Below are positions 3,501-39,583 of a stretch of DNA of 39,583 nucleotides, one piece after another. The position numbers were made by a program, and so were the translations under genes. The notes beneath the pieces were generated by a model that worked only from the letters and a program-made list of their open reading frames with translations, was not told where the DNA came from and did not search any database. How positions within the stretch are numbered: the stretch's first letter is position 1; the number at the start of each line of letters is the position of its first letter. The DNA is from a virus: positions 1 through 39,583 of IMG/VR virus record IMGVR_UViG_3300024520_000194. The stretch is one strand, 5' to 3'.

Positions 3501-4953
3501 AACCATACAGGCGGAAGCGGTTACTGAAGCATGGCTCAGAAGCGTGCCTCTTCCCCCCGGCATACTGCCTCCTGGACTGGCGACAGACACGAGAAATCAC
3601 GAGTTGGAAGAAAGTGTCGCTGTGCTTGCGAATATCACCGGGGTGGATCCATCGAGAATCCATAACGCATTGTCCTCGAACGAAGTTGGGCGAATAGATC
3701 GGATCCCCCCTGAAGAATACGACGACGTAGTTCGAGAGTTGAATCATCTTGCCACTGGACGCTGGGTGAACCCGGACGTCACGCCAGAACAGGCTGCTCA
3801 GGCCCTTCAGGTACTGGGTCAATATGCTAATCATAATCCTGTGAACGTCGCCAACCTTTTAGATGAGGTGGCTGCCGGGTCATCCGCACCGGGGGACATT
3901 AGCGATCTAACTGCCAATCTAGACCTCAGTGAAGGTGGGCCTCTGTCGGACTATGTCTCCCGCTTTCGTGACTACTATAGCATTGAACCCGGCACAGAGA
4001 TCAACGTGGATCAATACACCAAGTGGGTAGCACTCGGCATGCCGCTCAGGGGCGCCGACGGTAAAGAGTTCTGGATGGCAAAGCCTCCGATACTTCCAGC
4101 GCTAATGATCGACGACCAGTTCGACTACAATAAGGTCGCTGCCCTGAACGTAAACTCTGAAACCGGGAAGTACACCTTCACCACATTCTTGTCAGAAGAC
4201 GCTCCTGGTTTTCTTGCATACCTAGAGGCTGAGAAGGTCACGCCGAGTAACCCTGCTGAAATGAAAGCGGCCTATGGCGACTTCCTTGAAATGGTAGACA
4301 ACAGTGCGCGTCGCAGTAATGCAGTAGGGGGGTTCCTGGACGACGGCTTATCCAAAGTCCTCAACGCTACGATCGAAGGGGCGGGTGCGATGGTGTCCCA
4401 CCTCGCTGCTGGATATGAGCGACGTGAGCAACTCATAGCAGCGCAACAGACCAGTGACACCATGCGGTACATGGGGGACTCGAACGTATCTATCCATGGC
4501 GAAGCCGCAACTGAGGCTGCATGGCTCAAGGATTTCCAGTCCAAGGCGCAGATTGCCCTGAGCGCTATTACACCAGGGAGCACGGGTTGGCCGTCACGTT
4601 ATGCTGATACACCCGAGGGTGCAATCTGGGACTTCACCAAAACGAAGACTGTTGAAGAAACGACGAGCGAGATCGAGCGGCGCATAGAACACTTGAATGA
4701 GAAGATATCCCTTGAATCGTCACGACCTCCGGCACGCTTCGGGTCAGACATTTCCCGTTCACGGGAGGAGAGGATTGCCCGTATGCAAGAATCCATAGTC
4801 ACGCTACGTGGGCTGGGTAACCAACTGCAACTAGGGCACACTGCATGGATGGATTCCCCTAGCGAAGCGCCCCTGCCATACCACGGTAAGGTAGGATTGC
4901 GTTGGCAGTCATACCATGGTCGATATCCTTGGGGGTCATACGATGGTGGATAG
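505..4953 (+). CDS. Large internal virion (ejection) protein 1
   Basis: 1,482 residues. The GTG start at 505 is preceded by AGAGGT six bases upstream. Long helical segments flank a very glycine-rich hinge (about residues 410-432, with seven consecutive Gly). Around residues 820-910 comes a Lys/Val-rich and partly hydrophobic stretch that could meet membranes. Place and size fit the T7 gp15/gp16 class of ejectosome proteins, which leave the capsid before the genome and form the trans-envelope channel. I see no lytic transglycosylase signature, unlike T7 gp16, although a divergent one cannot be excluded. The 3' end overlaps the next large gene, so the two are probably translated together. Function is inferred from position, length and composition. 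Confidence 0.6.
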   Translation: MVQINIKGAQVSAAKHTVDDSAYKAAVDRYERNQSLVGVAQSALKLGASLDAEKKQKAGSKAEGQLQTWDKTEREGLLKDATERGDLDAKRNEFTNLSGIGDDPYSSPAFKPTYKPALGSLTKIDGGSPGVNSRLEDQKTIASYEQQKAYEQGYDSSLLRSTFENIPPDELGVLKRAEIAMGNMDALEGKFVDQGASEDSFTEVFTQYVLGNLEQETPDTIIDYQGDYYGEIDDVLVRAGAPSEARYTAKKILNQKIVEEVMSDPGAFAFRVRNNQNVQGITERAGLPREVLSKLQRQTRNFEEVEARVNAPKGIDIGTVSGFAWLQKNLPLGDVIEYAEHHNDKILSNGMDPGDEKLLITVPRSVPDSAGGGRMIFHEVPVSTEVHPGELGNLPLGWSLAYPVSGARVSGAGTGGPGGYSVGGGGGGGSRGRVDPDPHPDFVPETHDGMIRNALTEAFFPQDSKYIDELEGKDQDASIEQMIKLVMTKWDNSPMSNPNLPLSKDTISAQVAWLREKGMHMGIGGDGLPSVVWDRYGLLELSGQQARDLGIRKPTQADLPATFTYRGSGEPTLTLLDGTPIVKHTEPWYEMLQNVTVALTEGGEGGENAYGPYWLSTGIPNPTALAELFQETATADGFDWGDFSLDSAMANFAALIPDPFDQKAALESIVALDPDDPDFEEHVNAIHAGLTAAEVVALVKTAQTATNLAIYKSHRIPPLSSVASKLDLLLKPSPSSAGALSKDQLMAVLKRAGATTDDMAMILANAADEVAASGAGGTRGAGAATARANRAQAISWLRDTVKTDRALLKIVMKELRKPAVDVAKSVTKSVVKAVVKSPWTLAKALFTVKNIVKGVTYYAGEYTFGVTTKALLGHDRQKDTDELLTRAGLPTGSPWSHLVQLVTEEGDLDSPGDWVKGAGLTVATAADMAIEYFSLGQLSVEEIGALGAGLVAKSRQSSGLVTQERQLQSHQRATTRTALVSKIVLATGNVSRKSAPAGTTIQAEAVTEAWLRSVPLPPGILPPGLATDTRNHELEESVAVLANITGVDPSRIHNALSSNEVGRIDRIPPEEYDDVVRELNHLATGRWVNPDVTPEQAAQALQVLGQYANHNPVNVANLLDEVAAGSSAPGDISDLTANLDLSEGGPLSDYVSRFRDYYSIEPGTEINVDQYTKWVALGMPLRGADGKEFWMAKPPILPALMIDDQFDYNKVAALNVNSETGKYTFTTFLSEDAPGFLAYLEAEKVTPSNPAEMKAAYGDFLEMVDNSARRSNAVGGFLDDGLSKVLNATIEGAGAMVSHLAAGYERREQLIAAQQTSDTMRYMGDSNVSIHGEAATEAAWLKDFQSKAQIALSAITPGSTGWPSRYADTPEGAIWDFTKTKTVEETTSEIERRIEHLNEKISLESSRPPARFGSDISRSREERIARMQESIVTLRGLGNQLQLGHTAWMDSPSEAPLPYHGKVGLRWQSYHGRYPWGSYDGG

Positions 4954-7900
4954 CCCAAGAGCCCCCGCCTTCGCCGGGCAAGCATACACTGGGAGGAGAT
5001 CATGGACTCCAACCTTTAACTCCGGAGTCACGCAACCAGGGCTGGCTAGCGAATCCTCAACTGTGGGTGCTTATGTTCGCCAGGAGTTAGGGGTAGTGGG
5101 TAGCGCTAGTAGGTTATATGAAAACTCTGATCTGGCGATCACTGGAAATGACCCACTATTCGCAGGCGTAGCGAGATGGGCTTATGGGTTATCGGGATCA
5201 GTAGCCGCTATGGTCGGCCCTAAAAACCAGCAGGAATACGCAGCGCTAATAGACGAAAGCGTTGACGACGTGTACTCTTCCGTACTCGTTGACCTCTTCG
5301 GCTACACTCCAGTCGAGGGAGCCTACAGGGGCCCTGTTCCCCCGAATATCGCAGAGCATAAGGCGTCCGAGTTCCTGCAGAGGATCAATGCGGAGTCCAC
5401 CCTTGAAGGGCGCAATGCCATCCTGTTTCAGATTCAACAAGAGGCCCGTGACCGTGAGGCTATCTCTAGAGCGGGGATAGCAAAACTTCTTGCCGTGGGG
5501 CTGCTTGCATTACCCTTTGATGAGTCCTTCTGGATTGACCTATACGTTACCAAGGGAGCCCTCAAGTTGAATCGGGTTCAACAGATGGCGCGCATGCATA
5601 AGATTATTGGCGCGGCAGGACTAGGTGCTGTAGGCGCTGGTGTTTCTGGAGGGATCAGGGAGGCCGTCCTGTTCAAGGGTCAGTATACCAGGACAGCCGA
5701 AGAGGTACTCAGGAATATAAAGATTGAAGCGGCCTTTGGTGGCATCATGGGTGGTGCGATAGGGACCATGAGCACGGCATACAGGGCAGCAGTGCGAGCA
5801 CGCTACGGAGCCGACACTGTCCATGATGCGATCGTGACGGCCACTGACTCGATCGCTGCTAATCTTGCTAGCAACCCACGTCTGGCGGGGCGAGTGACTA
5901 ACCTGCTTGACGCTTTCCAGGCCGACCGGAACATAGACGACGCTGTGCTTGACTCCGTGCTTGACGATGTGCTTGACGGTTCCGGTAACCAACACATAGT
6001 TGAACTGGTTGGGCTAAGGAAGGGGACGTGGAGAAACTCCCTCTTGAATAAGTTCTTCTTCCTGACCCCTAACATACGGTTTGCTTCCTCTAGACTGACA
6101 AAGCCACGAGAACTGATCGACCAGTTGACCAATACGGGCCTGGCAAAGGAGGGTGGCACTGGAGGGACTAGCCTTGAGCGACTGAAGATACTCATGGAGG
6201 TTCAGCAAGATGCTTCACGTATGGAAGCCGTGGATATATTCCGACTAGCAGAATCTGAGGGTTCCAACATTAAGGATCAGGTCGCATTTGATCGTGCCGT
6301 AGAAATGTTATACCGAAGGGATCCGACAGGTACGTTCGACGTGCCCGATCGAATCGAGTATTCCGACCGGGGTGTATCAATAAACGTCCTTGAACTAACC
6401 GAACCAATCAATGCCCGAGGTAAAAAAGCGCTGAAGGCAGCGACCCAGAAGTTCCAAGAAGAGCAGAAAGTGTATGACCTATTGGCCGTCCAGTCGGGAT
6501 ATGTTGACGCCAATAGCATGGCCAAGATTAGAAAGTTCTACCGTGACACGCATGGCGAGAACTTTGTTCACCGGATCATTGACCGTGACGCAGTGTTCGC
6601 TGATCGAGAGGCTGTGCACGAGGCTGTAATGCGTGGGCTTGCTGACCTGCACGCAAAGCGCGGACCTGAACTGCAGGCAGAGATAACGGCACTCCGAGCC
6701 GAGATAGATAGAGTGCGTCTTGCTGAAAGCAATGGCGCCGATTCTACACAAGCGGCCAGTGAGATAGAGCGCTTAGAGATCGACGTCCATAACCTTGAGG
6801 TTGACCTTCAGTCCATGGTGCCTGACGCAACACGGGCTAGTAATATTGTGGGCAACTGGATGGCCAGCGCCGACGGGTATATCCGCCCGAGTATGAGTAC
6901 AGGAGAACGCACTGTCTTAATCAAGGACGAGTTCCTGGAGCCCTGGTTAATCCAAAGCGTGGAGGCCCAACGCTCCGCCTTCTACTCAAACACAGGCTTG
7001 AAGGGGATTGCCTTCCAGAAACTAGGGAGCAGGGAGTCCCTTAAGTACGTCAGGAGATCAATAGAACTCCACCAGAAGATGGACGAACTCGATACCAAGA
7101 TAGCAGGGGCGCCTGACGCTGCCACTAGAGATCGGTATTACAATCAACTCCAAGAGCACTTGGAAGAGATCGACGTCATCACCCAATCCGCTCGGTTGTA
7201 TAACGACATGAGGTTGGCCACCACCCTGGACGAAGCGACCTTGGGGTTGTCCCTTAATAAGGTACGCACCATGGAGAGGCGCCTACTCAACGCTTCAAGG
7301 ACGGGCAACCGATCGGAGTTCAACCGGGCAGTGGCTGAGTTCAATACCACCTCAAAAGAGTTCGTGGGGACGCATGCCCTTCTTGGGGATCCAGGCACGA
7401 AGGCAAGCGGGAAGATCTCAGAACACAAGGATATCAGGATCTTCAGGAATCGAGGCGACGCCTACGTTGGTATGGACGCAGAGATCCGATCAGCATTGTC
7501 CGAGGACCCGATGGTCATGGACGCAAGGGGGCAAGTCAGGGCCGCCCGTGTGGAATCACTAGCCGAACGTAATCGAATCCAAGCGCTAGAGATCGGTGAC
7601 AACAGCGACTATCGCAACTTCCGAATGGAAGCAAGCATGGAGCGGGAAGTTGCTGCGGGGGGATACAAGGCGAAGGATACGAAAGAACTGAAGAGGATCA
7701 TAAATGACCTGAAGGTGATTAACGAAAGGATCATGGGAGTTAGAGGATCTGACCCGTCGGATCCATGGAAAAACCTTGGGCCTTTGTTCCGTAACTACAA
7801 CTACATGACTTCGATGGGAGCGGTAACTCTTTCGAGTTTCCCTGACGTAGCCATGGGGGTATTCACTTCTGGTCTTGGCCCGTATGTTTCCTCACTCTAT

Positions 7901-9298
7901 CGCTATGGAAGACATACTGTCAAAAGGATGGTTAGTTCTGCGGAGCCAGACGAGAAGTTCTTCATGATGGACATGACCCACTCACTAGAAGCCAACGCCA
8001 CGGGCGCGCGAATACGTGAGATCATGCAGTTCAAACGAGAAGGGGCCCAGGACTACAGTAGACAGAAACAAACCATAGGCAAGAGGGTATACGAAGCGAG
8101 TAAGACCGGGTCAGAAGCCATGACTAGGTACTCCCTTCTCGGGAGTTGGAATGGTTTCTGGAAAGCAGTGAACAATGGCGCTGCCGCCTCCAGGATAGGA
8201 CGAATCGCTAATAAACTTGGGGCAGGAAGAAACGTAAGCAAGAGCGACCGACGATTCTTGGACATGCTTGGCTTGAACGAGGTTGACGTAAAGGATATGG
8301 ACGTCCTTTATAAAACCTTCGGGCGCACCGAGTCCACTGGCCTTGGGGCTAAGTTCCACTACACCATGTCACAGTCGTGGCAGGGTGCCGTCGGCAACCT
8401 TAACTCTACCCGTGTTGCCCAACTGAAGTCCCGCCTCAATGGATCATTAAGCCTCAACAGCGACCTATCAATCGTAACTCCAGGTGCAGGATCACTCCCG
8501 AGTATGGTGGATAAGTCCGAAGGCTTTTCCATGATATTCCAGTTCAAAAGGTTCTTCTTCACCGCAACGGAGAACGTGCTCCTGCCCATGATTCAACGTG
8601 GCATAGGGCGTGGTGAGGGTCAGGCTCTCATGGCTGGTGCTGGGTTGATCTTCATGGGGGGGCTCGTCACTGCGGCCAAGTCAGTGCTGAAGGGGCAGGA
8701 TCCGTTCCCACACATTTCACTCGACGCTGGGATAGGTGAAGGCTTCCGAAGAACCCGGTCAACCAAACAAGAGTACTACAATAACGTGGTCTCTTTGATG
8801 GTTAATGCCGTAGACCGATCAGGCATTCTAGGAATCATGGCTGACCCCATGAACATTGCGTCCAAGGCCGGGTACGACCCGATACAGATTATATCCGGTG
8901 GCTCTGATAGTCTTGGCAGGGCCAAGTCAAAGCCTATCCTCGAAATGCTTGGCGGCCCGACGGCAGGGAAAGCGCAGACCATGTTCGAGGCTGCGGGGTC
9001 AATGATAGGGTTGCTCACTGGGGTGGACAAACTCACACCTGCGGCTACTAAAGATTTCATGGCACTGGTCCCATTCCAGAACCTACTGCCCTTCACCATG
9101 GTAGCCAACACCAGTTTCTCACTGCTCGAAGCGAACGACAAAGCAGAAAGACAGATGCGTATCGCGCCCGACCTGGGCGCCAAAACAGCCGCGGATTTCT
9201 ACTACGACCAGTTCCGCTTCATAGAGCACAGGCTCGCCCCGTTACTTGTTGAAACAGATTACTCCAACTACTCCCCCAGAACAGCGATTGTACAATAA
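4916..9298 (+). CDS. Large internal virion (ejection) protein 2
   Basis: 1,460 residues from ATG 4916. An ATG at 4943 has GGGGG seven bases upstream and may be the true start; it would overlap the previous stop by 11 bases. Two glycine-rich hydrophobic segments (about residues 228-250 and 274-292, for example AAGLGAVGAGVSGG) look membrane-active. A charged coiled-coil region follows at about 570-640. A second Gly/Ala hydrophobic patch lies near residues 1235-1265. This is the pattern of the large ejectosome protein (T7 gp16 C-terminal part, P22-type injection proteins). No peptidoglycan hydrolase motif is visible. It is the last large structural gene before a run of very small ones. Confidence 0.6.
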   Translation: MVDILGGHTMVDSPRAPAFAGQAYTGRRSWTPTFNSGVTQPGLASESSTVGAYVRQELGVVGSASRLYENSDLAITGNDPLFAGVARWAYGLSGSVAAMVGPKNQQEYAALIDESVDDVYSSVLVDLFGYTPVEGAYRGPVPPNIAEHKASEFLQRINAESTLEGRNAILFQIQQEARDREAISRAGIAKLLAVGLLALPFDESFWIDLYVTKGALKLNRVQQMARMHKIIGAAGLGAVGAGVSGGIREAVLFKGQYTRTAEEVLRNIKIEAAFGGIMGGAIGTMSTAYRAAVRARYGADTVHDAIVTATDSIAANLASNPRLAGRVTNLLDAFQADRNIDDAVLDSVLDDVLDGSGNQHIVELVGLRKGTWRNSLLNKFFFLTPNIRFASSRLTKPRELIDQLTNTGLAKEGGTGGTSLERLKILMEVQQDASRMEAVDIFRLAESEGSNIKDQVAFDRAVEMLYRRDPTGTFDVPDRIEYSDRGVSINVLELTEPINARGKKALKAATQKFQEEQKVYDLLAVQSGYVDANSMAKIRKFYRDTHGENFVHRIIDRDAVFADREAVHEAVMRGLADLHAKRGPELQAEITALRAEIDRVRLAESNGADSTQAASEIERLEIDVHNLEVDLQSMVPDATRASNIVGNWMASADGYIRPSMSTGERTVLIKDEFLEPWLIQSVEAQRSAFYSNTGLKGIAFQKLGSRESLKYVRRSIELHQKMDELDTKIAGAPDAATRDRYYNQLQEHLEEIDVITQSARLYNDMRLATTLDEATLGLSLNKVRTMERRLLNASRTGNRSEFNRAVAEFNTTSKEFVGTHALLGDPGTKASGKISEHKDIRIFRNRGDAYVGMDAEIRSALSEDPMVMDARGQVRAARVESLAERNRIQALEIGDNSDYRNFRMEASMEREVAAGGYKAKDTKELKRIINDLKVINERIMGVRGSDPSDPWKNLGPLFRNYNYMTSMGAVTLSSFPDVAMGVFTSGLGPYVSSLYRYGRHTVKRMVSSAEPDEKFFMMDMTHSLEANATGARIREIMQFKREGAQDYSRQKQTIGKRVYEASKTGSEAMTRYSLLGSWNGFWKAVNNGAAASRIGRIANKLGAGRNVSKSDRRFLDMLGLNEVDVKDMDVLYKTFGRTESTGLGAKFHYTMSQSWQGAVGNLNSTRVAQLKSRLNGSLSLNSDLSIVTPGAGSLPSMVDKSEGFSMIFQFKRFFFTATENVLLPMIQRGIGRGEGQALMAGAGLIFMGGLVTAAKSVLKGQDPFPHISLDAGIGEGFRRTRSTKQEYYNNVVSLMVNAVDRSGILGIMADPMNIASKAGYDPIQIISGGSDSLGRAKSKPILEMLGGPTAGKAQTMFEAAGSMIGLLTGVDKLTPAATKDFMALVPFQNLLPFTMVANTSFSLLEANDKAERQMRIAPDLGAKTAADFYYDQFRFIEHRLAPLLVETDYSNYSPRTAIVQ

Positions 9299-11293: not shown

Positions 11294-11557
11294 CTAGTAG
11301 TCGTCCTCTAAGACTATCGGAGTGTGTGGCCCGAGGTATCCGCCCTTGACGTTGAACTCGTACCACTCATACGCCTCCTCCCTGTCCCAGGAGTTGTTGG
11401 TCATGAGGGCTGCTATGATTCCCTTCAACGAGTAGATCACAACGAACTGGCTGAACGCTCCACCACACCCAATGATGGCAGCGTCCAACCCGTCCCACAG
11501 GATCGCTTCCGGGTTCACATCCTGAAGCGTAGAACGCACACGATCAGCGTCGAGCAC
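11294..11557 (-). CDS. Conserved small phage protein of unknown function
   Basis: 87 residues, GTG start with AGGAGA upstream and a 14-base overlap with the end of the ERF gene. The pattern is one I recognise from many phages: NPEAxxxDGLDxAxIGxG near the N-terminus, then WDREEAYEWYEFNVKGGYLG and an end rich in Pro and acidic residues (HTPIVLEDDY). No biochemical function is established to my knowledge. Being the last gene of a recombination operon (YqaJ, ERF) suggests co-expression with recombination. Confidence 0.75.
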   Translation of the reverse strand: MLDADRVRSTLQDVNPEAILWDGLDAAIIGCGGAFSQFVVIYSLKGIIAALMTNNSWDREEAYEWYEFNVKGGYLGPHTPIVLEDDY

Positions 11558-12098
11558 GGTTCAAGATCTCCTGCTTCGGATCTCTCTCGACAGCGCTATT
11601 GCCGTCGTCGTCCTTCGCTTCAGCCACCCCGCACAGCCCGCCGATCAGCCACCGCCTAGCATAGGTGTGGAAACTGGCGAACGCTTGCACGTTCTTCTGC
11701 GGGGGGCAGTGGATACTACTGGTTATGTTCTTGCCGTACCCAGAAATCTCCGCCGTGATCCTGTGTCCTGTGTGGTCTTGCGTTTCTATCCTCCGACCTG
11801 GGCTTGCCGCTATGGTCGGCCCTCCGAGGATTTTTTCGTCGCCAACCCATTCTGTCCTGTCCGAGAACGCAGGCTGGATATGCGTGTGGATAGTAAGCCC
11901 ATGCTTGGCCAGCACAGGACGCACGCACGCCATGAGGGTGCCCAGGTCCACGTACTCACTCTTGAAGTGAGGGTTCAATGAGTTCTTGATGGGGTCTTGC
12001 ATCTCCGCTTGAGCAGCAGAGAAAGCCTGTTCAAAAGTCCCGTGTTTCGTCGTCGGGGTCGTCGCTCTCTTCTTCACTACCTTCTTCTCCGTCTCCAT
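11544..12098 (-). CDS. erf: ERF-family single-strand annealing protein
   Basis: 184 residues from the ATG at 12098, which has AAGGA at good distance; an upstream in-frame start at 12158 is less likely. The ERF signature is clear: NPHFKSEYVDLGTLMACVRP (about 42-61), then VLAKHGLTI, and the C-terminal FHTYARRWLIGGLCGVAEAK followed by DDDGN. ERF proteins (P22 type) anneal complementary single strands and help circularise or recombine phage DNA. A YqaJ-type exonuclease two genes upstream would supply single-stranded ends, as in lambda Exo/Beta pairs. The lysine-rich N-terminus is encoded within the region that overlaps the acidic tail of the previous gene. Confidence 0.9.
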   Translation of the reverse strand: METEKKVVKKRATTPTTKHGTFEQAFSAAQAEMQDPIKNSLNPHFKSEYVDLGTLMACVRPVLAKHGLTIHTHIQPAFSDRTEWVGDEKILGGPTIAASPGRRIETQDHTGHRITAEISGYGKNITSSIHCPPQKNVQAFASFHTYARRWLIGGLCGVAEAKDDDGNSAVERDPKQEILNRARR

Positions 12099-12390
12099 AA
12101 CTCGTTCCTTCTTCCGTGTTGAGTTTCTTACACTCGTTATCAATGGCGTCGAAGACATCTTCAGCGCCCGCTATCTTCTCATAAGCCTCACGCACTGCAG
12201 GGATCAAACGAGTCGGCTCGTCGGTGCTCACGTAGCACTCTGCGCCGTAGTCGATCGGTAGCCTGCCCATATACGTGACGGATACCTGCACCTCAAGGTG
12301 CGCGAAATACTCACCGCTCTCTTTGCTGCGCTTCTCGGCTTCTATCTCCCTGAACGCTGCCAGCACCACTTCTCTTGGACTAAACTTCAT
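12031..12390 (-). CDS. Unknown protein with acidic tail, between yqaJ-like and erf
   Basis: 119 residues. The ATG at 12390 has GGAGAAGGT just upstream; a GTG one codon earlier is also possible. The N-terminal two thirds look like a small mixed alpha/beta fold, with a Cys in GAECYVS. The last ~30 residues are strongly acidic (EEGSEEESDDPDDE). The gene overlaps the YqaJ-like gene by 11 bases and the ERF gene by 68 bases. Its place between exonuclease and annealing protein suggests a recombination accessory role, which is inference from context only. Confidence 0.7.
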   Translation of the reverse strand: MKFSPREVVLAAFREIEAEKRSKESGEYFAHLEVQVSVTYMGRLPIDYGAECYVSTDEPTRLIPAVREAYEKIAGAEDVFDAIDNECKKLNTEEGTSYGDGEEGSEEESDDPDDETRDF

Positions 12391-13252
12391 CACCTTCTCC
12401 TTCTCGTACTTCGAGGGTTCTATAAGTCGATTTCTTTATTGTCTTCGTATGCTCACGGCGCTCCCTCTTGAAATAGTTCACCACACCTCCTTGATACTTG
12501 CCTACCTCTGCGTCACCAAGCGACTCGATCATCTTCATACGGGACGCTGCTTCTTCTGCCTTCGCCACCTTCAATGACGCTTTCTTTGCTTGCCAATCCC
12601 TGACTAACTCGTCCTGGATCGTTGTGACCTTGTCAGGCACACGCTTCATACGTTGCAGTGTCTTAGGGGCAGGCACAGAATCCGCTGGGGCAACCCTCGC
12701 CAGCACATGGTCCTCCCAGAATCGGGAACACCTCTCAACTATAGAAGTAATCAGTTCTTCGTCCCTGTCTACCACGTATAGTTTGAATCTCAAAGCAAAA
12801 TCAGGCATGAGCACAGGGACATAGATCCTGCTGTAACCCGTAACGTACATTTGCCATTGTACTTGGGCTAGATAGTAGATAGGTATCTGGTCGGTACCTT
12901 CTTCACCCCAATGAGCCGAGTTGCCAGTCGTCTTCGCCTCTACTCCAGTGTCTTCCAGGTCCAAGCATATAGCGTCCATGGTTGCAGCGGCCCACTTTAT
13001 ATGGGGGTGCACCCTGAACTGGTTACGCCGCAACTTCCCAACATGGATCTCCGCGAAGTCGAGCACGGCACCCTCCAGCAGGTTGCCAGACTGGATCGCT
13101 TTGGACTCCTTCTCTCTGTCCTCAAACTCCACCGTCTTATTGTAGTAGACGTCACTCTCGCTCTTCCACGGGCTCACCCCAAGCACCGCTGGTACGTCAC
13201 TAGCACCAAGGTATCGGTGTCTCCGATTTAATGCCGACTCACTCAGTGCCAC
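12380..13252 (-). CDS. YqaJ-type (lambda-exonuclease-like) recombination nuclease
   Basis: 290 residues from a GTG that overlaps the previous stop (TAGTG). A longer in-frame form to 13324 would overlap the upstream gene by 72 bases. The YqaJ core is visible: YLGASDVPAVLGVSPWKSE (14-32), LLEGAV with Glu60, the acidic Asp93 in TMDA, and Glu105-Ala-Lys107 in GVEAKTT, followed by YLAQVQWQMYVTG. These give the expected E, D, E-x-K metal-binding set. The C-terminal third is Lys/Glu-rich and helical. Expected activity is 5'-3' resection of double-stranded ends to feed ERF. Product assignment is strong; the exact start is less certain. Confidence 0.88.
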   Translation of the reverse strand: MALSESALNRRHRYLGASDVPAVLGVSPWKSESDVYYNKTVEFEDREKESKAIQSGNLLEGAVLDFAEIHVGKLRRNQFRVHPHIKWAAATMDAICLDLEDTGVEAKTTGNSAHWGEEGTDQIPIYYLAQVQWQMYVTGYSRIYVPVLMPDFALRFKLYVVDRDEELITSIVERCSRFWEDHVLARVAPADSVPAPKTLQRMKRVPDKVTTIQDELVRDWQAKKASLKVAKAEEAASRMKMIESLGDAEVGKYQGGVVNYFKRERREHTKTIKKSTYRTLEVREGEGDEV

Positions 13253-13638
13253 TAGTCCACTTCCGTCCCTCTTGCAGGCTTGCCTCGCACACAGGTCACG
13301 ACACCCGGAGAATGGCTCCCCCATGTGCTGTCATCCTCTACTAACCTCACGATACTGTCAACCTCCCAGAGGGTTGCACACTGGTACGACCATGCACGAT
13401 AGTCCGACAGTTCCATTGCTTCACTGGAACCGTGCACCTCCCCAGCAAGAACTTGCGCTCTCAATGCGGCCTTCTTCCCTGCTGGCATTTCTACTCGTTG
13501 ACTAGAGATCCTCCACCCAACTCCGTTCACCCATTTAGTCTCCCCCTTGATTACCTTCTCCACGTAACCGGGGCATAAAAGCAACCCGAGTTCACTACAG
13601 ATCACCCGTAGTTGTTTCTCTGTTCTAACACGTGCCAT
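13252..13638 (-). CDS. Hypothetical early protein
   Basis: 128 residues, ATG with a clear AAGGAG seven bases upstream. Mixed composition with four cysteines and a Trp-rich middle; no motif I recognise. The stop codon overlaps the start of the YqaJ-type nuclease, so it belongs to the recombination operon and is probably translated with it. Confidence 0.65.
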   Translation of the reverse strand: MARVRTEKQLRVICSELGLLLCPGYVEKVIKGETKWVNGVGWRISSQRVEMPAGKKAALRAQVLAGEVHGSSEAMELSDYRAWSYQCATLWEVDSIVRLVEDDSTWGSHSPGVVTCVRGKPARGTEVD

Positions 13639-32826: not shown

Positions 32827-32861
32827 GGCCGTGTCTTCAGGTTTACTTGGAGGACGTGACC

Positions 32862-33224
32862 ATGTTGTTGCAGTTTGGCTCCACCAATCCAGCACCAGTT
32901 GTGCCCAGTGCCTACCCCTCCGCGTCAGTGTTGATAGCGGGCATTACCGACGGCACATACACATGTGCCTACCAGGAGAGCCTGACGGACCGATGGTTTT
33001 ACGTGACAGAGGGGTTCCTTCGGTCGAAGACTGACCGACCAGGGTTTTGGGATTTCCGGCTAGTTGATACAGTGCACCTCGTCGAGAGGAAACTTTGCTG
33101 TAAAGCGGTCGTCAAGGCCACGGGCGTTCCTGAGTTGGGGTTCGAGATCAAGGGTCATGGGCCGGGCATCTATACGGTCGGTGAGTCCATGAACAATCGC
33201 TCCTTTGTTAGAGTGCCCGTATGA
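32862..33224 (+). CDS. Hypothetical virion protein
   Basis: 120 residues from ATG 32862 with GGAGG upstream. Beta-strand-rich with aromatic residues (TCAYQESLTDRWFYVTEG, RPGFWDFRLVD) and two adjacent Cys. No family recognised. Its stop overlaps the start of the repeat protein (ATGA), so it is co-translated with the tail genes. Confidence 0.65.
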   Translation: MLLQFGSTNPAPVVPSAYPSASVLIAGITDGTYTCAYQESLTDRWFYVTEGFLRSKTDRPGFWDFRLVDTVHLVERKLCCKAVVKATGVPELGFEIKGHGPGIYTVGESMNNRSFVRVPV

Positions 33225-36200
33225 CGACTGGTCTAAATGCAAGGATAGTCGATAGGGCCAGAGGCTACATAACTGGGGTCGGGGACGACGACAACTATAC
33301 CCTGACTACCGCAAATGCTGGCCAGATCATACTTGCTTCGGCGTGCATGGATGATGACGACGAGTTCAGGACTGGTAACTCTCACAGTATTGTATACAGA
33401 GCAAGAGGCGCCACCTCCTTTGTGGCCCTTCCGACGTCTTCCTTTGGGACTGTCCCTTATGTAGATTTCAGTAACACGACGATATCCAATGGCTCCAATG
33501 TAACCAATGCCAACCGTCGTGCTAATAGTACGTACAACCCTAGTGGTAACGGTTTCAGGGCGTCCGGGAAAGAGTTCGTGACCTCGCAGTCACATAACTA
33601 TGGGACTAGATGCCGGGACCATAACACAGAAATGCAAGTTGCGATAAACTTCAGCAACTGTGGTTCGTCTACGACGTGGGAGTTCCAGACAGTTTGGGAA
33701 GATGATGATGGTGCGACTACTAATGTAAGTTGCCCTTCCATTACGACGGTTGCAGCAACGGCCACTAGGGTTGTGGCTGGCACGGCGTCAATAGGAACTG
33801 TGAGCGTGACGCAGAGTGTGGTTAACTCTGATCTGTACCACGCTTATTATGCTGACATAGTGCCGCTAGGTACTGTGGACAGTAGCGTCACTGCTACTGT
33901 AATCGAGACGTTGCGAGACGCTGCTTCTTCAGCGTCGATAGGCACGGCATCCCCATCCGTAACCGTTACTGTCACCTCTGACGCCGTCGTCGCTGGTACC
34001 GCTTCAATCGGTACCGTTGCAGGTGCTGCTACTATTAACAGTGCTAAGGTGACTAGGGATGCTGCCTCTTCTGCGTCGATTGGGACAGCGGCTGCCACTA
34101 TCACTATAGATTCTATTACTGAGACTTCGAGTGTTGTAGATACCGCTTCAATCGGTACCGTTGCAGGTGCCGCTACTATTAACAGTGCTAAGGTGACCAG
34201 GGACGCCGCCTCTTCTGCGTCGATTGCCACGGTTGGTCTTGCCCCTGTTCTTGTCACTGCTACTAGGGTCACGAGTACTATAGGCGAAGCCACTTCGATA
34301 GGGACAGTCGAGGGTGCCGCCACTATTAACAGTGCTAAGGTGACTAGGGATGCTGCCTCTTCTGCGTCGATCGGCACGGTAGCCCCAGCGGTGATCGTTG
34401 GTACTACGTCAGATGCCGTTGTCGCTGGTGTAGCGTTAATAGGTACAGTTGAAGGTGCCGCTGCTATTAGTAGTATTACTGGGCAGAGCGCTCCTGGTGG
34501 TACTGCTTCGATTGGCACCGTAACCCCGGTAGCAATCGTTGGCACCACGTCGGATGCTGTTGTCGCTAGTACTGCTTCAGTAGGCACCGTTGAAGGTGCT
34601 GCTACTATTAACAGTGCTAAGGTGACTAGAGATGCTGCCTCTTCTGCTTCCATCGGCACGGTGTCACCAGCAGTGATCGTTGGTACCTCGTCAGACGCTG
34701 TTGTCGCTGGGGTTGCGTCAATAGGCACGCTTGCTGTCGGGCCCTCCTTGGGGTTGTCCCTTGTCAGCACTTCTAGGCTAACTCGCGACGTTGCTGGTGT
34801 CGCCTCGATAGGAACGGTTGAGGGCGCTGCTACTCTCGTTGTCAACAGTGGGTCCAGTTTCCCTGCGGGAGTTGCTTCCATCGGCACGGTGTCACCAGCG
34901 GTCATCGTTGGTACCACGTCAGACGCTGTTGTCGCTAGTACCGCTTCGATCGGCACAGTGTCACCAGCGGTCATCGTTCTCACTACATCAGATGCTGTTG
35001 TCACTGGTACCGCTTCGATTGCCACGGTTGGTCTTGGCCCTGTTCTTGTCACTGCCACTAGAGCCACCAGCAATGTAGGTGAACCCGCTTCAGTAGGCAC
35101 AGTTGAAGGCGCCGCTACTGTTAGTAGTGCTAAGGTGACTAGGGATGCTGCCTCTTCTGCGTCAGTCGGAACCGTAACCCCAGCGGTAGACGTAGGCAGT
35201 ACAGGCGGTGGCGTCAATGTTCCTGTGTCTGCTGCCGCGTCGATCGGCACAGTGTCACCAGCGGTCATCGTCGATTCTATATCAGACGTTCTGGTCACAG
35301 GTGCTGCGTCAGTAGGTACGGTTGCCGTTGCGCCGGGCCTCGGCCACAACTACGGGATTGTCGTTTCAAGGGCCACAAGAAGCGTGGCAGTGAGCGTCTC
35401 AGTAGGAGGCGTTGGAGCGCTGATTGATCTCGTCATTGTTCCCCCAGTGGGAGTTGCTGGAACCGCTGCAATCGGGTCCTTAAGCATAGTGATTGCTGTC
35501 GATTCCCTGACGGGGATTAGTGACCTGGCCCCTTCGGCTTCAATAGGGGAAGTCACTGTAAGTGTCACAACAAATAGCGCCCCGGTGATTCAGAGTGTGT
35601 CGGGCACTGCGTCGATTGGGTCAGTATCCGCTGGCGGATCAATCTCCGCTGCCTTGTGGCGTGAAGTTGTAGGGAGCGCTTCAACTGGAGGAGTCGCCTC
35701 TGCTATCTGGGTGGATTCGGCAACCTACCTAATATCTGTTACAATCGACGGGGTCGGAAGCCTCACCGAAAACCTTTTGAAAAGGAGCGTTATCGTGTCA
35801 GTAGAAGAAATATGGAACATTGGTTTAACCCAACTAGGGGTGGGTCGAGTGGACTCGGCGGTCAACGACAATAGCGCTCAGGCTGAGTTGTTGAGGGATA
35901 TCTGGCCCAACTTCCGCAAGCAGTTCATTAGCGACCATGCGTGGAATGGGTGTAAGACAACGGCAGCGCTCACTGCATACCCGGATAGCGATTTCAAGGA
36001 CACTACTAGGTGGGCGACCATTTACTCCCTGCCGTCCGACTACATTCGAGCCCTGACTGTGAACGGGCACAAAAATCAACCGAGTAACTCAGAGTCGGTG
36101 ATGTGGGAGATCGAGGCGGTAGCCAATGATAGTGGGGTAAAAAGTCGTTGCCTGTGTTCTAACCAGAGTTCCGCTAAGTTAGAGTATGTGTTCGACGTAG

Positions 36201-36427
36201 GGGATGCTAATACTGACCTACTCGCTCCAGCCATGAAGCACGCAATGGGTATCGCGTTAGGGGCCTTTGTCGCTCCTAACTTTGGCAAGTCAGCGAATGA
36301 AATCGCGCTTATGGAGCAGAAAGTTAAGGAAGCGCTCTTGAGGGCTAAAGGGGTTGACGGCCAGGAGAACTCGGCCCGCTACTTCTCTCCCTCGGAGTTG
36401 GTGGAATCAAGATATAGGAGCCTTTAA
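33221..36427 (+). CDS. Repeat-rich tail protein/adhesin fused in frame to tail tubular protein A
   Basis: 1,068 residues. Residues about 1-175 are a beta-rich head domain with Cys pairs (HNTEMQVAINFSNCGSSTTW). Residues about 180-835 are built of ~20-24-residue repeats around ASIGTV, for example SAKVTRDAASSASIGTV and AVIVGTTSDAVVAG. At least five near-identical 50-bp copies exist in the DNA. Residues 859-1068 are a complete tail tubular protein A (VEEIWNIGLTQLGVGRVDSA, FISDHAWNGC). An internal GTG with a strong ribosome site (35795) suggests A is also made alone. The repeat part resembles a beta-solenoid or fibrous adhesin that could contact the host. A base error upstream that removed a stop is an alternative explanation of the fusion. 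Confidence 0.75.
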   Translation: MTTGLNARIVDRARGYITGVGDDDNYTLTTANAGQIILASACMDDDDEFRTGNSHSIVYRARGATSFVALPTSSFGTVPYVDFSNTTISNGSNVTNANRRANSTYNPSGNGFRASGKEFVTSQSHNYGTRCRDHNTEMQVAINFSNCGSSTTWEFQTVWEDDDGATTNVSCPSITTVAATATRVVAGTASIGTVSVTQSVVNSDLYHAYYADIVPLGTVDSSVTATVIETLRDAASSASIGTASPSVTVTVTSDAVVAGTASIGTVAGAATINSAKVTRDAASSASIGTAAATITIDSITETSSVVDTASIGTVAGAATINSAKVTRDAASSASIATVGLAPVLVTATRVTSTIGEATSIGTVEGAATINSAKVTRDAASSASIGTVAPAVIVGTTSDAVVAGVALIGTVEGAAAISSITGQSAPGGTASIGTVTPVAIVGTTSDAVVASTASVGTVEGAATINSAKVTRDAASSASIGTVSPAVIVGTSSDAVVAGVASIGTLAVGPSLGLSLVSTSRLTRDVAGVASIGTVEGAATLVVNSGSSFPAGVASIGTVSPAVIVGTTSDAVVASTASIGTVSPAVIVLTTSDAVVTGTASIATVGLGPVLVTATRATSNVGEPASVGTVEGAATVSSAKVTRDAASSASVGTVTPAVDVGSTGGGVNVPVSAAASIGTVSPAVIVDSISDVLVTGAASVGTVAVAPGLGHNYGIVVSRATRSVAVSVSVGGVGALIDLVIVPPVGVAGTAAIGSLSIVIAVDSLTGISDLAPSASIGEVTVSVTTNSAPVIQSVSGTASIGSVSAGGSISAALWREVVGSASTGGVASAIWVDSATYLISVTIDGVGSLTENLLKRSVIVSVEEIWNIGLTQLGVGRVDSAVNDNSAQAELLRDIWPNFRKQFISDHAWNGCKTTAALTAYPDSDFKDTTRWATIYSLPSDYIRALTVNGHKNQPSNSESVMWEIEAVANDSGVKSRCLCSNQSSAKLEYVFDVGDANTDLLAPAMKHAMGIALGAFVAPNFGKSANEIALMEQKVKEALLRAKGVDGQENSARYFSPSELVESRYRSL
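34031..35166 (+). repeat. Near-identical 50-bp coding repeats in the adhesin
   Basis: Copies start at 34031, 34175, 34322, 34604 and 35117 and encode TINSAKVTRDAASSASI or close variants. The first four differ by only a few bases; the fifth is more diverged. Units between them are more varied. Such identity within one gene points to recent duplication or homogenisation and allows repeat-number change. Confidence 0.8.
35795..36427 (+). CDS. Tail tubular protein A (nested in-frame start)
   Basis: 210 residues from GTG 35795, close to the 196 of T7 gp11. AAAAGGAG lies seven bases upstream, one of the best ribosome sites in the late block. The product starts MSVEEIWNIGLTQLGVGRVD and contains LRDIWPNFRKQFISDHAWNG, RWATIYSLPSDYIRALTVNG and a C-terminal YFSPSELVESRYRSL, the tail tubular A pattern. 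It forms the ring that joins portal and nozzle. The same frame continues upstream into the repeat protein without a stop; a TGA lies in another frame at 35778-35780, directly before the ribosome site. Independent synthesis is very likely. Confidence 0.8.
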   Translation: MSVEEIWNIGLTQLGVGRVDSAVNDNSAQAELLRDIWPNFRKQFISDHAWNGCKTTAALTAYPDSDFKDTTRWATIYSLPSDYIRALTVNGHKNQPSNSESVMWEIEAVANDSGVKSRCLCSNQSSAKLEYVFDVGDANTDLLAPAMKHAMGIALGAFVAPNFGKSANEIALMEQKVKEALLRAKGVDGQENSARYFSPSELVESRYRSL

Positions 36428-39400
36428 TGGCGTGGCATCCACAAGTCTCTTTTAGCCAAGGTGAGGTTTCTCCTCGGCTAGACGGTCTCTATAACCAGGA
36501 GGTCTACGACGCGTCCTGCCGTAAGTTAGAGGCTGGGATAGTATCGTCTAGTGGAACCGTCGAGAAACGTAACGGCAGCACGTACCGTGGCGACACCGCG
36601 TTTTCAACTGCGACAGTGACTACTTTCACCTCTACTGCTGTGAAGTTGATCCCCTTCCGTGTCGGGACAGACACCTACGTTCTGGTGTTCGAGGTGCTGA
36701 CGGACGACACACGTACCTGGGGCGCTATCCGTGTGGTAAAGAACGACGTGTTCTATACGTCAACGGGATCGGACACATACACCGGCACGCAGATATGGAA
36801 GGCATACACCTACACCCATCTTCCGTTCAGGACGCAAGAGTCACTCTTCCACACTGGAGCCGCTGCTGATTACTTACCGCCTGGAAGCGATGCCTCCTTC
36901 AGCAAGTTATTCGGTTGGCACCACTTCACCGCTGCTCAACTGCCAGACGTGACATACTTCCAGCATGAAGACAACTTGATTGTGTGTCACCCCGACGCCG
37001 TCCCGCTAGAAGTATTCAATACTGTAGATACTGACGGGACAAAAGTCCTAGACACCAGGACGTATGCGGTGAACAGGCGTTCTCCTGAGGTAATCAGGTA
37101 TGGTGAACGGTTCACTATGAATGTTACTGGGGGGACTGATGGCGCCTACACCGTAGAGTCTTCACGTGACTGGTTTGGCGAGGACGACATAGGGGCGATA
37201 TACAGGATCGGCTCCCTCTCTGCTTCACACGCGACAGCCGTTACCGACGTGGACGATAACACTACTACGTCGCGAGACGAGTGGGACGATAGAGGGGGGT
37301 ACTTTGCAAAGGTAGTCAAGGTGATAGACAAGCGGAAATGTACCGTGTCGGTCATCTCTGCCACCACTGTGCAAGGCAGGACCTACGTTGCTGACGTTTC
37401 TGACCCCTATGACTGGGACGGTCCCTGGATCAGGGAAGAGGGGACCATAGGCTATCATCATCTAAAGGCTGGGTATGGATGGAACCCTTCCCCGGAGACC
37501 CTTGGGGAGACCATATCTTACGCTGGGCTAAACTTGATACAAAATGACGAAGTATCTACTAGTCTCAGTAAGCCCTTGTTGTCAGACAGCACTCCCTTCT
37601 TCGAGTATTCCCTTGCTGGCTGCATCCTGGGTAATCGAGCAGACGACACGGCAACACCTGTGAACCTTACCAGGGAGTGTTATGCTCTGATGACTGGTGA
37701 CATCTCGGGGAACGTCCTCCAAGGCTCAATCATAAACGGAGCACAAGCACCTAGTGCGACGGTTCCTGGTTGGGTAACGGCAGGTATTGAAGACCGTTGG
37801 CCTACCAGTGCAGGACTTACAGGTCAGAGCGTGTATCGCCTACGAAGGAAGTCTAGCCATACGGCATACGCGCCCACCGTCACTTGGTCACCGGGCATAT
37901 CGCACTACGGAGACGATCATGTCATCGACGGGTGGCGTGTGAGACCTAAGCGTGGCGACAAAGTATACATTTGCGTAGGGAATATTGAGCCCGAGATCTC
38001 AGGCAATGCCGACTGGAAGGTAGCCTTTGACTCCATACCGGAGGGCCATGCCACGTCGTTTGGGACTGGGGAGGTGATAGGGGATATTGGTGAAGCGCCA
38101 ACCGCAACCAATGTGATCGGCACCGCTGGCACTGTTCATGTCAACGGTGGAGTATTCGCCCTGCGGAATGCCTTTAACGCCAGCGGTGGCGTGGACGTGG
38201 TCAAGGGCGTGGTGTATATAGCGGCTACCGTTTTGGTTCCTCCAACCTCACGTTCTGCGACGTCGAAGTATAGCCTCGGTTGGTCTAAGGCCGTGGGCTT
38301 CCCCAGTTGCGGGGTAAGTCACCAGGGTCGTGTGATCTTCGGTGGGTTTGATCTGGCGAAACGAGTGGTGGTTGGTAGTGAGCCTGACAGACCGTTCGAT
38401 TTCGGGCTTGGCGGCACCGCTGCTGACGGCTTCCACTTCCTGGTGAACGACTTGCGTGGTAGCCGGGTACGCTGGCTGTCTTCCGGTAAGGACCTTCTCA
38501 TAGGTACAACAACCGGGGAGTTCTCAGTAACTGGTTCCCCCCTCTCTGCTGTATCTGTAGGAGTTGATAGGGAGTCGGCCTATGGGTCTGCGTCTGTCCG
38601 CCCAGTAATCGTTGGCACCGTACTCATGTACGTGCAGAAGGACCGGAAGACCATCCGGGCGATGCGCTACAACTTCGATAATCAAAGGTACCAGAGCAGG
38701 AACATTACGCAGGAGCATTCACACCTCTTCTCCTCTGCCACGATCGAGGAGATGGTTGTGTGGGAGGGGCAAGAAGACCCTGTTGTGCTTGTTCGTCTAG
38801 CGGACGGAGAGGTGCTCGCCTGCCGTGTGAACGAGATTGACGGATTTATGGGGTGGTCGAGGATGAAGTTCCCGTCGTGCTCGTCGATCTCCACTGCACG
38901 GAACTATACTGCTGGCGTGTCTTCTTCTGCCACAGCCGTAGACTCCTTCTACATGGCGACAACAGACACCGACAAGTCACGCCTCAACCAATATGATGAC
39001 ACCATCTACATTGACGAAGCAGTTGTGATGGACAGTGTTACTAACACAACGTTGACCTTCCCTGCAGGATACACATACCTCGATGGGGAGACAGTCTCAG
39101 TTATCATAGACGGGGTATACCGTGGTGAAGAGATAGTAGAAGTCGGTGCTGGCGGGGGACCGTCCATCGTGAAGTCGTCTAGTAACGGCACGCCTCTCAC
39201 AGCCACCGTGGGGAAAAAGATCAGCATGGTCATGCAGCCGAGGGTGCCAGAAATCGGTGCAGCGAGCAGGGTGGCGAGTACTTTAGGTCGGTTGAAGAAC
39301 TACTCCTCCGTGGTGGTGAACCTTCATGGCTCAAAGGCTGCGCAAGTAAATGGATATGAAGCGGACGGTAGCACATTCAGCACCGCAGCGACGGTGTCGA

Positions 39401-39540
39401 GTCACCCTGTACTGAATGGCTGGTACGAAGTACCTGTTACTGGTTTATATGGGATTCAGCCTCTCTTGGAGATCACTTCGGACAGGCCATACCCCATTGA
39501 AGTCTCAGGTGTTTCAATAGATGTCAGTGTGGAAGGATAG
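36427..39540 (+). CDS. Tail tubular protein B (nozzle)
   Basis: 1,037 residues; the ATG overlaps the previous stop (TAATG). The start MAWHPQVSFSQGEVSPRLDG and YDASCRKLEAGIVSSSGTVEKRNGS is typical of podovirus nozzle proteins (T7 gp12-like), which often begin with a 'F..GE.SP.L.GR.D...Y..g...l.N....p.G...rRpG' pattern. The rest is beta-rich with the LIPFRVGTDTYVLVF and PDVTYFQHEDNLIVCHPD segments also common in the family. Longer than T7 gp12 (794 aa). It forms the tail nozzle on tail tubular protein A. Its 3' end repeats at 2-94. Confidence 0.88.
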   Translation: MAWHPQVSFSQGEVSPRLDGLYNQEVYDASCRKLEAGIVSSSGTVEKRNGSTYRGDTAFSTATVTTFTSTAVKLIPFRVGTDTYVLVFEVLTDDTRTWGAIRVVKNDVFYTSTGSDTYTGTQIWKAYTYTHLPFRTQESLFHTGAAADYLPPGSDASFSKLFGWHHFTAAQLPDVTYFQHEDNLIVCHPDAVPLEVFNTVDTDGTKVLDTRTYAVNRRSPEVIRYGERFTMNVTGGTDGAYTVESSRDWFGEDDIGAIYRIGSLSASHATAVTDVDDNTTTSRDEWDDRGGYFAKVVKVIDKRKCTVSVISATTVQGRTYVADVSDPYDWDGPWIREEGTIGYHHLKAGYGWNPSPETLGETISYAGLNLIQNDEVSTSLSKPLLSDSTPFFEYSLAGCILGNRADDTATPVNLTRECYALMTGDISGNVLQGSIINGAQAPSATVPGWVTAGIEDRWPTSAGLTGQSVYRLRRKSSHTAYAPTVTWSPGISHYGDDHVIDGWRVRPKRGDKVYICVGNIEPEISGNADWKVAFDSIPEGHATSFGTGEVIGDIGEAPTATNVIGTAGTVHVNGGVFALRNAFNASGGVDVVKGVVYIAATVLVPPTSRSATSKYSLGWSKAVGFPSCGVSHQGRVIFGGFDLAKRVVVGSEPDRPFDFGLGGTAADGFHFLVNDLRGSRVRWLSSGKDLLIGTTTGEFSVTGSPLSAVSVGVDRESAYGSASVRPVIVGTVLMYVQKDRKTIRAMRYNFDNQRYQSRNITQEHSHLFSSATIEEMVVWEGQEDPVVLVRLADGEVLACRVNEIDGFMGWSRMKFPSCSSISTARNYTAGVSSSATAVDSFYMATTDTDKSRLNQYDDTIYIDEAVVMDSVTNTTLTFPAGYTYLDGETVSVIIDGVYRGEEIVEVGAGGGPSIVKSSSNGTPLTATVGKKISMVMQPRVPEIGAASRVASTLGRLKNYSSVVVNLHGSKAAQVNGYEADGSTFSTAATVSSHPVLNGWYEVPVTGLYGIQPLLEITSDRPYPIEVSGVSIDVSVEG

Positions 39541-39583
39541 TCATGGCTTTTTGGGCAGCAGCCTCTTTCGCGCTCACCGCTTT
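39447..39583. repeat. Terminal overlap, right copy (same as 1-137)
   Basis: Repeats the first 137 bases with one mismatch (39457 C against A at position 11). See the left copy for interpretation. Confidence 0.9.
39543..39583 (+). CDS. gp14-like internal virion protein, 5' end (duplicate of 97-492)
   Basis: First 41 bases of the gp14-like gene, cut by the window end and identical to 97-137. It shows that the gene follows tail tubular protein B directly when the genome is closed. Confidence 0.9.
   Translation, partial: MAFWAAASFALTA

Follow-up and report, generated by a model that had tools for sequence, protein, structure and literature searches.

In phages T7 and SU10, a ring of 12 adaptor subunits is the attachment site of separate fibres (PMC6702177; PMC9509320). 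The gp17 fibres of T7 attach at the junction of adaptor and nozzle (PMC6702177), and the SU10 fibre proteins gp12 and gp13 form separate trimers whose N-termini are bound to the adaptor (PMC9509320). Here we describe a gene in which fibre and adaptor would be parts of one polypeptide. It lies in IMG/VR virus record IMGVR_UViG_3300024520_000194, all 39,583 nucleotides of which form the window analysed. In this gene, a single open frame joins a long fibre-like protein to a complete tail tubular protein A (TTPA), the gp11-type adaptor.

The closest comparison for the C-terminal part is with T7 gp11, KP32 TTPA, the Carin1 connector (8ck1) and the family phrog_394. As in these, the C-terminal 210 amino acids have the adaptor fold and the gene adjoins that for the nozzle. 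A beta domain of the present adaptor takes the place of the T7 fibre dock. In the stand-alone relatives examined, however, TTPA begins its own gene, whereas here it forms the C-terminal part of a protein of 825-1200 amino acids. Like T7 gp17 and SU10 gp12/gp13, the upstream part is proposed, in this case from sequence, to be a long protein held at the adaptor ring. Unlike the SU10 fibres, which are separate and docked by their N-termini, its attachment would be covalent and C-terminal, with the N-terminal head distal.

An internal start inside a longer frame also has precedents among phages. In-frame nested genes of this kind are described for Ms6 Lysin A, with an embedded second endolysin (PMC3111421), for M13 G1p/G11p (PMC9228878) and for the endolysin isoforms of phi2638A (PMC12203907). 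The present gene would resemble them in that a full-length and a C-terminal product come from one frame, both are functional and the parts can co-assemble; it would differ in that theirs are lysis or assembly proteins and not components of a tail ring. A literature search, mostly outside subscription journals, turned up neither a fusion between an adaptor and a fibre-like protein nor a nested gene for a tail ring. In other words, nested genes with an internal start, adaptors and fibres are already known, and it is the fusion of an adaptor to a fibre-like protein that appears to be new.

Architecture of the fused gene

The fused gene and its parts are as follows.

33221-36427, + strand: fused gene (head, repeats, linker and tail tubular protein A, the adaptor), 1068 amino acids; the same architecture is found at 43 related loci
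33221-33769, + strand: N-terminal head domain of about 183 amino acids, a predicted beta-sandwich (alignment and model), exchangeable among relatives
33770-35700 (boundaries approximate), + strand: repeat region of low complexity with ASIGTV-type units; repeat types differ among relatives
35711-35794, + strand: conserved linker (VDSATYLISVTIDGVGSLTENLLKRSVI) from the repeats to the adaptor, recognised by its pN/pS in the fused frame
35778-35780, + strand: TGA in the +1 frame, not conserved in the family
35780-35787, + strand: Shine-Dalgarno (SD) sequence AAAAGGAG of the internal start, with 7 nt spacing; the motif is conserved among loci
35795-36427, + strand: tail tubular protein A (gp11-type adaptor), 210 amino acids, from an internal GTG start (phrog_394, 8ck1, fold)

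A preliminary description of this DNA had reported a single stop-free frame running from a beta-rich head through ASIGTV repeats into a full TTPA, with an SD-preceded GTG at the adaptor start and a TGA nearby in another frame, and all of these features held. The frame opens with an ATG and continues for 1068 codons. The head is modelled as a beta-sandwich with a predicted template modelling score (pTM) of 0.71, and Tandem Repeats Finder (TRF) resolves the repeats into arrays of 141-144 and 69 bp. GTG 35795 is in the fused frame seven bases downstream of AAAAGGAG and begins the 210-amino-acid TTPA, and the TGA at 35778-35780 is read in the +1 frame. The frame is open for 858 codons 5' of the TTPA start; the stop shortly before the start that marks a stand-alone TTPA gene is missing. 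These 858 upstream residues have no Pfam or PHROG match.

Relatives and origin of the fusion

A first search, with the TTPA part as query, gave 19 relatives that are 47-89% identical to it. A further 23, at 39-50%, came from a profile search, and a second profile contributed one more, 41% identical to its query. In all 43 of these relatives, which lie on other viral contigs and whose TTPAs are 39-89% identical, the frame is open into TTPA. It is open to a proper upstream start in 30 and as far as the contig reaches in the other 13. The preliminary description had suggested looking in related genomes for a stop before the TTPA start, and none of the 43 has one.

Stand-alone relatives in our sample are at most 31% identical, and in nearly every one a stop codon lies only a few codons away from the beginning of TTPA; none of those sampled has a long open frame leading into TTPA. 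In a phylogenetic tree, 34 distinct fused TTPAs fall on one side of a single branch (100/100 support) and 23 stand-alone TTPAs on the other. Because the fused sequences are confined to one side of this branch, the fusion probably has a single origin and has been retained since. The phage collection searched contains no known phage with the fusion; the relatives that it does hold share about 24-27% identity, and the ones inspected are stand-alone. A single relative came from bacterial genomes, a distant one at 29% identity.

Selection on the linker and on the internal start

Over the 25 codons that lead up to the TTPA start, the protein sequence is kept, with the pattern [VIA]xIxGxG...LL, while the repeats 5' of them are wholly different among relatives. 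The peptide across the linker includes SLTENLLKRSVIVSVEE, and all 23 loci that were aligned share the I of TIDG. For eight loci with gapless linkers we computed the ratio of nonsynonymous to synonymous change (pN/pS). Taken over the entire linker, it is 0.37 in the fused frame; codons -25 to -8 give 0.42 and the final three codons 0.15. The other two frames yield 1.28 and 1.63. In four loci (L014-L017) the linker has an insertion, and the frame is preserved. Given this selection at the protein level in the fused frame, there are strong grounds to infer that the fusion is translated.

The start of TTPA is conserved in a different manner. Were the fusion all that counted, any synonymous codon would serve at this position. 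The residue at this position varies among V, L and M, yet the codon is always a start codon: among 33 distinct sequences there are 18 GTG, 8 TTG and 7 ATG, and nothing else (in one relative, L064, the start is shifted by one codon in the 5' direction relative to its neighbours and was counted at that position). Yet only 25% of the Val codons in these genes are GTG, and 17% of the Leu codons are TTG. An SD motif precedes the TTPA start in 28 of 28 testable distinct loci, compared with 10 of 617 other in-frame NTG codons, and is retained while the peptide that it encodes varies (KRSE, TEGE, LGAD, QGAD, TEAQ). In each of 26 distinct loci, its pairing energy is stronger than that of synonymous alternatives on average. 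A conserved start codon and SD thus lie inside a longer coding frame, as in an in-frame nested gene. The persistence of both signals through changes of residue strongly suggests that the internal start is used and that free TTPA is made from GTG 35795 as well.

The preliminary description had supposed that one gene gives both a fusion and a free adaptor, and the conservation of linker, start codon and SD lends this comparative support. In this genome the SD energy is -2.4 kcal/mol at the fusion start and -7.9 kcal/mol at the internal start. Since the fusion start has this weak SD and also overlaps the preceding stop, free adaptor is expected to be in excess over the fusion.

The adaptor domain

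The part encoded from 35795 matches phrog_394 (tail protein) over residues 1-207 (E 1e-29) and, by profile, chain E of 8ck1, the Carin1 connector (E 1.5e-4). Its AlphaFold model has a predicted local distance difference test score (pLDDT) of about 72-92 over most of its length. The predicted fold consists of two long N-terminal helices, six strands and two further long helices, corresponding to a helix bundle with a beta fibre-dock. Structure comparison gives VIA Z scores of 16.7 with the Carin1 connector, 15.2 with LME-1 and 11.7 with T7 gp11, and Foldseek matches the model to the Carin1 connector with an E value of 4.8e-10. The family match across the domain, the fold and the adjoining nozzle gene within the virion block identify this part as a gp11-type adaptor, and the genome holds a single copy of TTPA.

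The fold match begins at model residue 67, which is the residue encoded by GTG 35795. Given that match and internal start coincide exactly, the short product is, by the model, a whole adaptor, to which the linker is an addition.

Head domains and their exchange

Several unrelated head types occupy the same place in relatives of the fused gene. Two pairs of relatives, L053/L054 and L010/L011, have near-identical repeats, linkers and TTPAs but unrelated heads, and sequence comparison indicates that these are recent head swaps. Exchange of heads on near-identical fusions is a pattern typical of host-recognition modules. From its position, its variability and the repeats behind it, the head is probably the receptor-binding tip.

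A homologous head also occurs in an unrelated phage (L117, 5001-7559), where it is followed by other repeats and lies directly 5' of a gene of the SU10_adaptor family (PF24175). In both phages, then, a homologous head and long repeats directly precede the adaptor gene. In L117, however, the head-repeat gene has its own stop and is without the linker, and the adaptor belongs to another family and has a separate start. The L117 arrangement looks as if it were the unfused state of the same neighbourhood.

Two side observations concern exchange. The MAIEW-type heads of L001 and L018 are very similar, although their TTPAs are only about 50% identical, which suggests head transfer between distant members. 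The present genome encodes, on the - strand, an Erf-like annealing protein (11544-12158) and a RecE/YqaJ-like exonuclease (12380-13324), a recombination pair that could help module exchange.

Proposed mechanism and alternatives

We consider it quite probable, on comparative grounds, that this gene encodes a receptor-binding fibre anchored covalently through a C-terminal adaptor domain, with internal initiation supplying unfused ring subunits. The first product would consist of the N-terminal head (the probable receptor-binding tip), a shaft of repeats, the linker and a complete gp11-type adaptor subunit at the C-terminus. The second would be the free adaptor subunit, made from GTG 35795 with its own SD. 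The ring beneath the portal would be built from both, so that some positions carry a covalent fibre and no separate fibre protein is docked. We infer that both products are present in virions, that the head binds the host and that the ring is mixed. Among the open reading frames (ORFs) scanned 3' of the gp16-like gene, many of which have no match of any kind, no separate gp17-like gene was recognised, which fits a fibre carried on the adaptor subunit. That short-tailed phages would here have a novel mode of fibre attachment, with the receptor-binding fibre as the N-terminal part of the adaptor subunit, its N-terminus distal, and internal initiation setting how many positions bear fibres, we put at about an even chance.

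If the arrangement is as proposed, it offers a simple genetic means of setting the number of fibres per virion, host-recognition heads would be exchangeable as N-terminal cassettes, and ring stoichiometry could be tested through one start codon. Throughout this clade of uncultured short-tailed phages, fibre and ring subunit seem to have become one protein, with a separate ring subunit kept via the internal start. Gene callers may then call the long ORF alone, misname it, or miss the free tail protein.

Several points weigh against this proposal. SD fractions at single loci range from 0.03 to 0.50, so that the evidence from SD energy lies in the sum of loci, and in the closest relatives the SD signal is partly due to the conserved peptide. 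The balance is reversed in L006 and its near copies, where the SD of the fusion start is the stronger one, and by a small margin in L049; the excess of free TTPA is thus not universal. The head has no Pfam, PHROG or confident PDB or viral structural match, with weak Ig/FnIII-like matches only, and its role in receptor binding therefore rests on position, variability and repeats. A tethered fibre also assumes that the adaptor N-terminus faces outward in the ring. Finally, the linker is short, conserved and predicted to be disordered, and its low-confidence AlphaFold model fits a cleaved protein as well as an intact one. This last point bears on the alternative that the long protein is cut in the linker, so that virions have the fibre apart from a ring made of short TTPA, with the fusion only enforcing equal synthesis. 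Arguing for this case, the internal start shows that the short form is a working protein. Counter to it, the ORFs scanned include none recognised as encoding a protease. The residues beside the start vary (KRSE, TEGE, LGAD, TEAQ, QGAD), with no conserved cleavage motif bordering it, and the core that is conserved, [VI]xIxGxG, is some 18 residues further upstream. Moreover, the internal start would need no conserving if cleavage gave all TTPA. Cleavage therefore seems unlikely. We think it more doubtful still that the fusion is the sole product made in quantity, with a fibre on every ring subunit, and that the internal NTG and SD are a remnant from before the fusion. A probable single origin means that the start was inherited from a stand-alone gene, but at 39-89% identity a remnant would be expected to decay. 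Instead, the start codon has switched among GTG, ATG and TTG, never to a non-start codon, and the SD persists while the peptide changes.

Two further alternatives had been raised in the preliminary description, and the relatives speak against both. A +1 frameshift at CTTTTGA would end the upstream protein at TGA 35778, with TTPA arising by re-initiation and the fusion a minor product. All 19 relatives from the first search do have a TGA or TAA at -17 in the +1 frame, but at least nine members of the wider set lack this stop (L043, L044, L048-L052, L056, L057), and it is therefore not conserved. The relatives also have no slippery heptamer in common. Where the +1 stop is present, it arises where a conserved Leu codon (TTG, TTA or CTA) is next to a 3' codon with A as its first base, and the codons 3' of it are still constrained as protein (pN/pS 0.15). 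A frameshift at this site is very improbable. An assembly error of one base, or more generally a sequencing error or a recent loss of a stop codon in one genome, is scarcely credible: the same junction recurs in 43 other contigs from many metagenomes, with TTPAs 39-89% identical, and nothing was found in its favour. Given so many separate contigs, the open frame is neither chance nor assembly error, and an adaptor-anchored fibre with free ring subunits is the reading that we prefer.

Genome record and gene neighbourhood

The ends of the record overlap by 137 bases (1-137 and 39447-39583) with one mismatch, a Q/K change at the end of the nozzle gene. Given this overlap, the record probably represents an entire genome, about 39.4 kb long and circularly closed. 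The fused gene lies within the virion gene block, with terminase, portal and capsid genes upstream, and overlaps both of its immediate neighbours.

32847-33224, + strand: upstream gene, whose TGA overlaps the ATG of the fused gene (ATGA)
36427-39540, + strand: tail tubular protein B (nozzle), 1037 amino acids, phrog_376 (E 4e-70), whose ATG overlaps the TAA of the fused gene

Across the record ends, the nozzle gene is followed in order by 97-492, 505-4953 and 4916-9298, the last of which is gp16-like (phrog_342 match). The gene preceding it, 505-4953, encodes a 1482-amino-acid protein without a significant family match that is possibly an ejection protein. Between the capsid and fused genes, 31910-32359 matches PF23140 (Podophage GP4 fiber I protein gp80) and the phrog_240 head protein.

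A promoter or terminator at the junction was considered and rejected, since promoter-like and terminator-like hits do not surpass those in shuffled sequence. Within the repeats, an antisense ORF of 500 codons (33847-35349, - strand) was considered as a gene and rejected. The longest antisense open stretch is only 106-362 codons in relatives, and the ORF is thus probably a by-product of codon use in the repeats.

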